Positions 2,263 to 7,497 of a stretch of 36,419 nucleotides of DNA are shown here, one piece after another. Positions within the stretch are counted from its first letter, which is position 1, and each line of letters begins with the position of its first letter. Both the position numbers and the translations under genes were made by a program. The stretch comes from Deltaproteobacteria bacterium (GTDB taxonomy: Bacteria > Desulfobacterota > Binatia > UTPRO1), in NCBI GenBank assembly GCA_005879405.1, contig VBKW01000202.1, forward strand, positions 1-36,419, written 5' to 3'. A model generated the notes under the pieces. It was not told where the DNA came from. It worked only from the letters and a program-made list of their open reading frames with translations, and ran no database searches.

Positions 2263-4013
<1,751 letters not shown>

Positions 4014-4106
4014 GCGAGTTGGTGAACGGCATTTTACGAGCCCGCATCTACGACGGCATCGTCCTGTTTCTCCTCGCGAAATCCGAAGCAAAATGTGATT
4101 TTCCTC

Positions 4107-4136
4107 TTGACATGTACAACGCCTTCTCCCTATGAT
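4107..4136 (+). promoter_or_regulatory. Near-consensus sigma70 promoter
   Basis: TTGACA (4107-4112), 18-nt spacer, TATGAT (4131-4136). Confidence 0.75.
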
Positions 4137-4239
4137 GCGCGGCGTTGAGGGGTGGTGGTGGAGAGTGGGTTGGGGGAGCGCTCGCCTGAGCGAACCAGAA
4201 CTCGAACGCAGCGAACAGTAGCCGTTGAGGGAGGTGTCT

Positions 4240-4317
4240 ATGGCAGCTAAGAAGAAATCGTCGAAGAGCAAGAAGAAGGCCCCGGCCAAGAAGGGCGGCG
4301 CCAAGAAGAAGAAGTAG
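4240..4317 (+). CDS. 25-aa lysine-rich basic peptide (MAAKKKSSKSKKKAPAKKGGAKKKK)
   Basis: ATG preceded by SD-like gagggaggtg; upstream near-consensus promoter and downstream intrinsic terminator; not in the supplied ORF track. Confidence 0.75.
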   Translation: MAAKKKSSKSKKKAPAKKGGAKKKK

Positions 4318-4403
4318 TCCCGTCCTGATCACGACTCATCGAAAGAGTTTCTAGCTTGTAGCTTCCGTTCTCAGGCGAGATGTAGAGCCCCCGGGCTCTA
4401 ACG

Positions 4404-4445
4404 AAAAAGGCCCTTTGACGCTCACTCGTCGAAGGGCTTTTTTCA
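4404..4445 (+). terminator. Intrinsic terminator downstream of the 25-aa ORF
   Basis: AAAAAGGCCCTTTGACG-ctcact-CGTCGAAGGGCTTTTTT hairpin with T-tract. Confidence 0.8.
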
Positions 4446-4454
4446 TTGCTGGTC

Positions 4455-5231
4455 ATGCGCACGCACGTCGCCGGCCATGCGGTCGAGATCACGCGGCCGG
4501 AGTCGCCGAAGTTCCATCATCCGCTGCTATTGCTGCACGGCCTCTGGACGGACGCGTGGATTTGGGAGCGGTTCGCGACGTACCTCGCACACCGCGGGTG
4601 GGAATCGTGGGCGCCGTCGCTGACCGCCGCGACGGCGATCGACTCGGCGCCCGCGCTCGCCCCGATCATCGCCGCCCTCCCGTCGACGCCCGTCGTCATC
4701 GCGCACGACGTCGCGACGCTCGGGGCTGCCGCCTGCGCCGCGCGCGGCATCGTGTCGGCGGTGGTCGCGATCGCGCCGCTCGTCGCGCCCGCCGACATGG
4801 ACGGCGTCCGCATCGTCTTCGCGTGGCCGCAATTCTGGCGCGCGCGCCTCTTCGGTACCCACGTCGCGCCGCCGCGCGGCTCGGCGGCGCGGGTGTTTCT
4901 CGGCGACGCCATCACGCACCGCGAGCGGCTCCGCGACGATTCGGGCCCGGCGTTTCGCGCCGTCGCGTCGGGAGGCGTCCGCCTACCTCCACGGATCGAG
5001 GTGCCGGGGCTCGTCGTCGGCGGCGAGCGCGACGTCATTGCTCCGGACGCCGCGATGCGCGCGGTCGCGACGCGTTTCGGCTGGACGCGGCGCGCGCACG
5101 CCGGCCGCGGGCATTTTCCGATGCTCGAGCCCGGCTGGGAGAACGTCGCGGACGACGTGCATCGCTGGATCGTCCAGACGCTCGGCGCCGAGCTCCTCGC
5201 CTTCCTCGACGAGGAGGAAGACCCGCAGTGA
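4455..5231 (+). CDS. Alpha/beta hydrolase fold protein
   Basis: LLLLHGLWTDAWIWERFATYLAHRGWESWAP; nucleophile-elbow position VVIAHDVATLGA; acid GGERDVIAP; His GRGHFPMLEPGWENVADDVHRWI. Confidence 0.85.
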   Translation: MRTHVAGHAVEITRPESPKFHHPLLLLHGLWTDAWIWERFATYLAHRGWESWAPSLTAATAIDSAPALAPIIAALPSTPVVIAHDVATLGAAACAARGIVSAVVAIAPLVAPADMDGVRIVFAWPQFWRARLFGTHVAPPRGSAARVFLGDAITHRERLRDDSGPAFRAVASGGVRLPPRIEVPGLVVGGERDVIAPDAAMRAVATRFGWTRRAHAGRGHFPMLEPGWENVADDVHRWIVQTLGAELLAFLDEEEDPQ

Positions 5232-5327
5232 TTTCGCGGCCGACCCCCTTTGACTCTATGGAACACGTTAGATATGCCACCGCGGGTAAAATCCACCACC
5301 ACGTCCTCGACAAAGGGAGGGAGCCCC

Positions 5328-5666
5328 ATGGCAGACCGTCCGCAAGCGACAAACGTTCCCGAAGTGTTCAAAGAGATGCCCAATCGCTTCAACGCGAACG
5401 CGGCGAAGGGCATGAAGGCCGTCTACCAATTCGACCTGACCGGCGACGGCGGCGGCAAGTACAATCTCGCGATCGACGACGGCAAGCTGAACGTCGCCGA
5501 GGGCGCGCATGCGTCGCCGAACATCACCATTACCATGGCTGCGAGCGACTACCTCGACATGGTGAACGGGAAGCTCAACCCGCAGATGGCGTTCATGAGC
5601 GGCAAGCTCAAGATCGCCGGCGACATGGGGCTGGCCATGAAGATGGCGCAGCTCTTCCCCATGTAA
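5328..5666 (+). CDS. SCP2 sterol-binding domain protein, copy 1
   Basis: MADRPQATNVPEVFKEMPNRFNANAAKGMKAVYQFDLTGDGGGKYNLAIDDGKLNVAEGAHASPNITITMAASDYLDMVNGKLNPQMAFMSGKLKIAGDMGLAMKMAQLFPM, typical standalone SCP2; SD agggagggag. Confidence 0.9.
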   Translation: MADRPQATNVPEVFKEMPNRFNANAAKGMKAVYQFDLTGDGGGKYNLAIDDGKLNVAEGAHASPNITITMAASDYLDMVNGKLNPQMAFMSGKLKIAGDMGLAMKMAQLFPM

Positions 5667-5695
5667 GCTTGTGAGCTGATCCGCGACGACCGTCT

Positions 5696-5728
5696 CGGGG
5701 AGCCTCGTTCGCGGGGCTCCCTTTTTTT
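5696..5728 (+). terminator. Intrinsic terminator, SCP2 copy 1
   Basis: GGGAGCC...GGGCTCCC followed by CTTTTTTT. Confidence 0.8.
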
Positions 5729-5767
5729 GTGCCGTCCGGCTGCCGCCGCGCACCGGCTGACTGCTGC

Positions 5768-6226
5768 TCAGTCCGCGGTCGGCTCGGCGTCGAGTGCGCC
5801 GTGGATGCCGCACTCGACCTTGTCGCGACCCGCCCAGCGACCCGCACGCTCGTCCTCGCCGGCGAGCACGGGCCGCGTGCACGGCGCGCAGCCGATGCTC
5901 GTGTAGCCGCGCTCGAAGAGCGGGTGGAACGGCAGCCCGTGCTGCTTCAGATAGTAGTAGGTATCCTTCGAGCTCCAGCGCGCCAGCGGATTCACCTTCA
6001 CAAGGCCGCTCGGTAACGTCTCGAGGATCGGCAGGCCGCGGCGGGTGCTCGCTTGGTCGCGACGCCGGCCGTTGATCCACGCCCGGACGCCGGCGATCGC
6101 GCGGCGCAGCGGCGCGACCTTGTTGATCTCGCAGCAGAGGTCGGGATCGCGCCGATACAGCTCGGCGCCGTGGCGCGCCTCGACGTCCGCCTGCGAGAGC
6201 TCGGGCCCGACCTCGACGAGGTTCCA
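5768..6226 (-). pseudogene. Truncated 3' fragment of cysH (APS reductase) created by the duplication
   Basis: Same sequence as the C-terminal part of the full gene at 6775-7497 (WNLVEVGPELSQ...VECGIHGALDAEPTAD); N-terminal half absent, joined to the hydrolase/SCP2 segment at 6226/6227. Confidence 0.9.
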
Positions 6227-6334
6227 GACCCGCAGTGATTTCGCGGCCGACCCCCTTTGACTCTATGGAACACGTTAGATATGCCACCGCGGGTAAAATC
6301 CACCACCACGTCCTCGACAAAGGGAGGGAGCCCC

Positions 6335-6673
6335 ATGGCAGACCGTCCGCAAGCGACAAACGTTCCCGAAGTGTTCAAAGAGATGCCCAATCGCTTCAAC
6401 GCGAACGCGGCGAAGGGCATGAAGGCCGTCTACCAATTCGACCTGACCGGCGACGGCGGCGGCAAGTACAATCTCGCGATCGACGACGGCAAGCTGAACG
6501 TCGCCGAGGGCGCGCATGCGTCGCCGAACATCACCATTACCATGGCTGCGAGCGACTACCTCGACATGGTGAACGGGAAGCTCAACCCGCAGATGGCGTT
6601 CATGAGCGGCAAGCTCAAGATCGCCGGCGACATGGGGCTGGCCATGAAGATGGCGCAGCTCTTCCCCATGTAA
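6335..6673 (+). CDS. SCP2 sterol-binding domain protein, copy 2
   Basis: Same protein as 5328-5666. Confidence 0.9.
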   Translation: MADRPQATNVPEVFKEMPNRFNANAAKGMKAVYQFDLTGDGGGKYNLAIDDGKLNVAEGAHASPNITITMAASDYLDMVNGKLNPQMAFMSGKLKIAGDMGLAMKMAQLFPM

Positions 6674-6702
6674 GCTTGTGAGCTGATCCGCGACGACCGT
6701 CT

Positions 6703-6735
6703 CGGGGAGCCTCGTTCGCGGGGCTCCCTTTTTTT
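6703..6735 (+). terminator. Intrinsic terminator, SCP2 copy 2
   Basis: Same hairpin + T-tract as 5696-5728. Confidence 0.8.
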
Positions 6736-6774
6736 GTGCCGTCCGGCTGCCGCCGCGCACCGGCTGACTGCTGC

Positions 6775-7497
6775 TCAGTCCGCGGTCGGCTCGGCGTCGA
6801 GTGCGCCGTGGATGCCGCACTCGACCTTGTCGCGACCCGCCCAGCGACCCGCACGCTCGTCCTCGCCGGCGAGCACGGGCCGCGTGCACGGCGCGCAGCC
6901 GATGCTCGTGTAGCCGCGCTCGAAGAGCGGGTGGAACGGCAGCCCGTGCTGCTTCAGATAGTAGTAGGTATCCTTCGAGCTCCAGCGCGCCAGCGGATTC
7001 ACCTTCACAAGGCCGCTCGGTAACGTCTCGAGGATCGGCAGGCCGCGGCGGGTGCTCGCTTGGTCGCGACGCCGGCCGTTGATCCACGCCCGGACGCCGG
7101 CGATCGCGCGGCGCAGCGGCGCGACCTTGTTGATCTCGCAGCAGAGGTCGGGATCGCGCCGATACAGCTCGGCGCCGTGGCGCGCCTCGACGTCCGCCTG
7201 CGAGAGCTCGGGCCCGACCTCGACGAGGTTCCACCCGTACGTCGACAGCAGGAGATCGCGATACGCGAGCGTCTCGGGGAAATGATACCCGGTGTTGATG
7301 AACACGATCGGCGTCCGCGGCGCGATCGCTTGCAGCATGTGCCCGAGCGCCACGCCCTCGTGCTGGAACGAGCAGGTGAGCACGGCATCGGGCGCGTACG
7401 TCGCGACCGTCCAGCGCAAGATCTCTTGCGGTGGGGCATCTTCGAGCTGGAGCGAGAGCGCGTCGAGATCCGGAATGGCGAGTTGGGGCTGAGACAT
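6775..7497 (-). CDS. cysH: Phosphoadenylyl/adenylyl-sulfate (APS) reductase, full-length
   Basis: CSFQHEGVALGHMLQAIAPRTPIVFINTGYHFPETLAYRDLL; DLCCEINKVAPLRRAI; SIGCAPCTRP; KVECGIH (CC/CxxC Fe-S pattern plus catalytic ECGIH). Confidence 0.92.
   Translation of the reverse strand: MSQPQLAIPDLDALSLQLEDAPPQEILRWTVATYAPDAVLTCSFQHEGVALGHMLQAIAPRTPIVFINTGYHFPETLAYRDLLLSTYGWNLVEVGPELSQADVEARHGAELYRRDPDLCCEINKVAPLRRAIAGVRAWINGRRRDQASTRRGLPILETLPSGLVKVNPLARWSSKDTYYYLKQHGLPFHPLFERGYTSIGCAPCTRPVLAGEDERAGRWAGRDKVECGIHGALDAEPTAD

Follow-up and report, generated by a model that had tools for sequence, protein, structure and literature searches.

The window, that is the whole stretch of 36,419 nucleotides that was analysed, is contig C163 of a 4.49-Mb assembly in 468 contigs. 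Between the genes for an enolase (eno) and an alpha/beta hydrolase it carries a compact unit made up of a sigma-70 promoter, a leader, a Shine-Dalgarno sequence (SD), a 25-codon lysine-rich ORF and an intrinsic terminator (Table 1), with a predicted transcript of ~300 nt (4143–4443). The coordinates confirm the original prediction, which had proposed a stand-alone unit of these parts with a ~100-nt G-rich leader and a transcript of ~300 nt. The promoter, with a −35 element (TTGACA) at 4107–4112 and a −10 element (TATGAT) at 4131–4136, had also rightly been named as the nearest to consensus; no other promoter-like site in these 36 kb (70% G+C) matches more than 9 of the 12 consensus positions. 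TTGACA is present in all six genomes of the window's family, where the −10 element is TATGAT or TATTAT (family alignment), and relatives with a clear promoter have leaders of 63–111 nt. High expression of the 25-aa gene is inferred from the promoter only, there being no expression data. The small hairpin that precedes the terminator has a counterpart at the position equivalent to 4384–4399 in the alignment of another family, f2 (families are labelled f1, f2 and so on; the window belongs to f1).

Table 1. The lysine-rich unit and its neighbours in the window.
Feature	Position	Strand	Sequence and remarks
Enolase gene, upstream neighbour	2667–4013	+	
Upstream conserved box	4024–4036	+	GAACGGCATTTTA; family alignment; similar box in other families; function inferred
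Promoter-proximal box	4090–4102	+	AAAATGTGATTTT; abuts −35; pattern AAAATGNNATTNT-N1-6-TTGAC marks Lys-rich units
Sigma-70 promoter	4107–4136	+	TTGACA-N18-TATGAT; 11/12 consensus positions, best promoter-like site in window
Leader	4143–4239	+	~97 nt; predicted start of transcription at ~4143, placed from promoter; G-rich first part 4149–4178
5′ arm of long-range helix	4181–4190	+	CUCGCCUGAG (DNA CTCGCCTGAG); perfect complement of 4370–4379; invariant in 6/6 family genomes
Shine-Dalgarno	4229–4236	+	GGGAGGTG; conserved in 6/6 family genomes
ORF, 25-aa lysine-rich microprotein	4240–4317	+	MAAKKKSSKSKKKAPAKKGGAKKKK; 13 Lys (12 AAG, 1 AAA)
3′ arm of long-range helix	4370–4379	+	CUCAGGCGAG (DNA CTCAGGCGAG); just 5′ of small hairpin and terminator; family alignment, centroid structure
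Small pre-terminator hairpin	4384–4399	+	AGAGCCCCCGGGCUCU; between 3′ arm and terminator; kept in 6/6 family genomes
Intrinsic terminator	4404–4443	+	Hairpin and T-run; from sequence; kept in 6/6 family genomes
Alpha/beta hydrolase (Abhydrolase_6)	4455–5231	+	Pfam PF12697, 43.3 bits; starts 12 nt past terminator

Two boxes lie upstream of the promoter. The pattern of the promoter-proximal box is almost exclusive to the Lys-rich gene, occurring about once per genome (148 genomes), and this exclusivity suggests a dedicated regulator or a specialised strong promoter. The box further upstream is possibly a regulator site, a function that is inferred; its pattern GAACGNCATTYTA has a single site in the window's own genome, and a regulon for this box was rejected for lack of a second genome site.

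The ORF is exceptional in composition and conserved as a protein. Among the 364 ORFs of 15–150 aa in the window, MAAKKKSSKSKKKAPAKKGGAKKKK alone has at least 28% lysine, and 20 shuffled windows yielded no ORF with at least 40%. A DNA search recovered the unit in every other genome of its family, and 6/6 family genomes retain promoter, leader core, SD, ORF, 3′UTR core and terminator, with all indels in frame. Differences at codon positions 1/2/3 number 10/12/38 in f1, 134/106/767 in f2 and 8/4/32 in f6. Since searching for Lys-rich ORFs is circular, 148 genomes were also searched in two ways that do not depend on the ORF. With a leader-only pattern (TGGGAGGGTT-N10-35-GCCTGAG) there were 18 sites, of which 17 have an SD, an intact 13–17-aa Lys ORF and the 3′ motif, the remaining site being a chance match. 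A promoter-only pattern (AAAATGNNATTNT-N1-6-TTGAC) found 31 sites, comprising 29 Lys-rich units and two chance matches; six new loci were predicted from the promoter alone, and a Lys-rich ORF was then confirmed at every one.

The original prediction, that of a so far overlooked family of microproteins expressed from a promoter and terminator of their own, would have been refuted by relatives that keep the flanks around a broken ORF. None was met: the ORF is intact in all six family genomes, and at the ORF-independent loci the same test found it intact in 17/17 units from the leader-only pattern and in the six new ones from the promoter-only pattern. Survival of the ORF and third-position-dominated differences support the predicted family, and the comparison of sequences identifies the 25-aa ORF as coding and under protein-level selection. 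That a non-coding stretch merely contains a fortuitous Lys-rich frame, as the length of the ORF (shorter than in normal gene calling) would allow, is refuted by the comparisons, since conservation of the unit, the pattern of codon differences, the unique promoter and the occurrence across the class all oppose it, and can be considered virtually ruled out.

Of the 17 families sampled in one uncultured bacterial class (148 species), at least 14 have homologous units, with products from 13 aa (MAAKKKAKKKKKK, in f2) to 138 aa. Products of 21–40 aa are found in f1, f8, f9, f13 and f15, and products of 56–138 aa with KKAPAKK- or KKKATKKKA-type repeats in f4, f5, f10, f11, f14, f16 and part of f6. 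The unit lies directly 3′ of eno in f1, f4, f5, f7, f10, f11, f14, f15 and f16, and eno relatives at 61–91% identity adjoin it in f1, f4, f5 and f7, as well as in further families, so that the predicted location downstream of eno extends to relatives in several families. None of 80 enolase loci from other phyla, taken as a control, has a comparable Lys-rich ORF. A search of a phylum sample with the leader pattern gave no clear unit outside the class; this pattern fits only some families, and restriction to the class is therefore not proven. No description of such a family was found in the literature searched, the coverage of which was partial. On present evidence the unit is larger in extent than first described, in the length range of its products, its link to a hydrolase gene and the pairing of its untranslated regions.

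On the downstream side, most families (f1, f5–f9, f11, f13, f17 and part of f2) have a hydrolase homologue after the unit; none was detected downstream of many f2 units, nor of f4 units. The hydrolase gene of the window's genome starts 12 nt past the T-run of the terminator and has no evident SD. Families f1, f4, f10 and f14 share another conserved neighbour, a stand-alone protein with an SCP2 sterol-carrier domain (PF02036, 5328–5666). An exact tandem duplication of ~1007 bp (5219–6226 and 6226–7233, 0 mismatches) takes in the 3′ end of the hydrolase gene, the gene for the SCP2 protein and a portion of a PAPS-reductase-like gene; as three relatives gave a single-copy match, the duplication (5219–7233) has probably arisen either in the assembly or very recently.

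This arrangement raises the question of a leader-peptide attenuator, in which translation of the Lys-rich ORF, through lysyl-tRNA or ribosome stalling, would set read-through into the hydrolase gene. Runs of lysine codons are typical of stalling leaders and are present here, the hydrolase gene stands directly past the terminator with no clear SD, and a hydrolase homologue comes after the unit in most families. An attenuator would however require a constant following gene, and many f2 units and the f4 units lack a detected downstream hydrolase; moreover, the ORF reaches 138 aa, and the partner of the leader arm precedes the terminator stem instead of lying inside it. We regard attenuation as quite unlikely.

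The leader and the 3′UTR of the window's transcript share a 10-nt perfect complementarity (4181–4190 with 4370–4379). The 5′ arm is also contained in a local hairpin (4179–4192, CGCUC-GCCU-GAGCG). The centroid structure of the transcript has the long-range helix, the minimum free energy (MFE) structure has the local hairpin, and the folding energy is ordinary (z = −0.9). RNAalifold does not recover the long-range helix in f1, where the local hairpin competes. With the helix invariant in its own family and the local hairpin winning the MFE, the own-family helix rests on perfect complementarity together with the evidence from other families.

Between families the sequences of the arms are wholly different and their complementarity is retained. 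Complementary arm pairs are UCGCCUGAG/CUCAGGCGA in f2, GUUCUCGCCUGAGA/UCUCAGGCGAGAAU in f8, UUUGCCUGUGAGGGUG/CACCCUCACAGGCGAA and UCGUCUGAGAGGA/UCCUCUCAGACGA in f4, CUCGUGCGGAGGGA/UCCCUUCGCACGAG in f7, AGUGUCUGUG/CACAGACACU in f11 and GAGUUCGAGACGGGGG/CCCCCGUCUCGAACUC in f15; the helices of GAGTTCGAGACGGGGG/CCCCCGTCTCGAACTC (f15), TCGTCTGAGAGGA/TCCTCTCAGACGA (f4) and CTCGTGCGGAGGGA/TCCCTTCGCACGAG (f7) are perfect or nearly so and unrelated to one another in sequence. The mean best leader/3′UTR stem scores 26.0 for true partners vs 21.9 ± 0.4 (maximum 23.4) for permuted ones, a separation of ~10 SD (ungapped stems, near-duplicates removed, 500 partner permutations). This test was adopted because unrestricted RNAduplex energies failed to separate real from shuffled partners. 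Gapped local alignment of the arms was dropped for its high background, and core-anchored pair counting gained little, the core being invariant and some 3′ cores being mis-picked inside terminators.

In f9 (MAFFT alignment, RNAalifold) a 12-pair long-range helix has both-side changes at several pairs, including UA to CG at two neighbouring pairs (three sequences) and AU to GC at another; five helix pairs are changed on both sides in one family. RNAalifold also recovers the long-range helix in f2, f4 and f6. The criterion for pairing between the 5′ and 3′UTRs of an mRNA, complementarity kept by compensatory change, is thus met; a few members (e.g. loci L211 and L221) have a weak helix or none that could be found. 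A second leader/3′UTR pairing, which would cross the first as a pseudoknot, is clear in f2 (GGGAGGGTTT with AAACCCTCC), suggestive in f11, f13 and f15, and absent in the window's own family.

Some 3′UTRs have further elements. Four f9 loci (L129, L132, L138 and L141) carry an extra hairpin, CCGGGGC...GCCUCG, right after the 3′ arm, with CG to UA at one pair, and in f9 a GGCUGGC of the 3′UTR is a possible pairing partner of the start region. All six f8 units (L026, L143, L144, L174, L007 and L011) contain the near-invariant GCTAGGCACGTA in the 3′UTR.

The conserved helix is located 25–75 nt 5′ of the start codon; it has SD and ORF inside its loop and its 3′ end beside the terminator. This placement speaks against control of the icaR type, in which base pairing of the 3′UTR with the SD region stops translation and brings in RNase III. 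Such control has its precedent in icaR (PMC3868564), the SD of f2 (AAGGAGG) has a perfect 3′UTR partner (CCTCCTT), and RNAalifold pairs the SD/start region of f9 with the 3′UTR; there is, however, no class-wide excess of SD/3′UTR pairing (15.95 vs 16.14 permuted), and f1 and f6 show less of it than swapped partners do. Masking of the SD by the 3′UTR is supported only in f2, with f9 suggestive in RNAalifold, and as an account of the unit it is very unlikely.

The pairing could also mean that the RNA comes first, as a structured regulatory RNA whose very short ORF yields a secondary product (dual function) or acts as a ribosome-dependent switch. Family f2 lends this some weight, its UTRs being more elaborately conserved than its ORF (13 aa within ~300 nt) and having two further long-range pairings, the GGGAGGGTTT/AAACCCTCC pair and that of the SD with an anti-SD-like CCTCCTT. 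Against it, the ORF is always intact and changes mainly at third positions, the unit has no match above the gathering score in Rfam 15, and f4, f10, f14 and f16 have products of 68–138 aa, from which it follows that the protein is not incidental. A functional RNA with an incidental ORF is in our judgement unlikely.

The reading that we favour, and think probable, is that the locus encodes, in single copy and on an mRNA that closes on itself, a miniature, intrinsically disordered Lys-rich polycation; this would be the short form of a family found across the class, whose members run from near-pure Lys peptides of 13 aa to histone-H1-tail-like repeats of 138 aa. The strong characteristic promoter, the selection on the ORF, the class-wide occurrence and the long-range complementarity are shown by sequence; function and feedback are inferred. 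Disorder and polyanion binding of the peptide are likewise inferences, drawn from the residues it contains and by analogy with H1-like tails that have been studied, that of AlgP for example, in the absence of binding data. The peptide would bind polyanions (DNA, RNA or polyphosphate) electrostatically and so serve as a small factor for condensation or annealing. The closing helix would hold the ~300-nt mRNA in a stable, closed loop, and opening of this loop would set the amount of peptide. In the least certain step, the peptide itself may promote annealing of the two arms and so act as a feedback brake. A bolder version, a self-titrating gene in which the polycation anneals the arms of its own UTRs and the mRNA senses free polycation relative to cellular polyanions, is doubtful.

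Genes of 13–25 codons, half or more of them for lysine, are among the smallest plausible bacterial protein genes; the unit shows that they can be conserved in single copy across a class, and ordinary gene calling would miss them. The unit is also a rare case of bacterial 5′/3′-UTR pairing backed by evolution across many families and not in one species. Two questions are now testable, namely the role of a stand-alone histone-tail-like peptide and mRNA closure as a control of tiny genes.

The original prediction had likened the peptide to H1/Hc1-like and SASP-like proteins. The resemblance to H1/Hc1 holds in composition and fails in profile matching. The Lys/Ala/Pro-rich low complexity of HC2 and hist_H1_lk_Burk is met (13/25 Lys, a KKAPAKK core, repeats in longer relatives), but no profile match is above cut-off; a 78-aa relative reaches 19.4 bits (cut-off 40) with Pfam HC2 (PF07382) and 23 bits (cut-off 80) with hist_H1_lk_Burk (NF038053). 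The 25-aa peptide itself has no Pfam or NCBIfam match at E ≤ 0.1; SASP-like character is thus without support, and the peptide, which would at most function in the manner of an H1 tail, is not assigned as a member. With Hc1 and Hc2 of Chlamydia and the Burkholderia-type H1-like proteins the family shares a disordered Lys/Ala/Pro-rich sequence, KKAPAKK-like repeats and a lineage-dependent length set by repeat number; Hc2 varies from 165 to 237 aa (PMC2848022). It differs from them in size (25 aa here, 13–138 in relatives) and in matching none of the curated profiles above cut-off. To our knowledge, neither a conserved eno/hydrolase neighbourhood nor a structured mRNA is known for bacterial H1-like proteins. 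The C-terminal tails of AlgP and PhaF (Pseudomonas) are similarly low in complexity and Lys-rich, and AlgP is a DNA-binding protein that organises polyphosphate granules (PMC9239181); in both, however, a long tail is attached to a folded N-terminal domain, whereas the microprotein is a tail only. With the icaR mRNA of Staphylococcus aureus the unit has in common a long-range 5′/3′-UTR pairing within one mRNA. In icaR the pairing covers the SD (PMC3868564), whereas the helix conserved here is upstream of the SD, encloses it and occurs class-wide with complete turnover of sequence. The gene thus belongs to a known kind, the bacterial Lys-rich H1-like proteins, and what is new is a near-pure polylysine miniature with class-wide paired mRNA ends.
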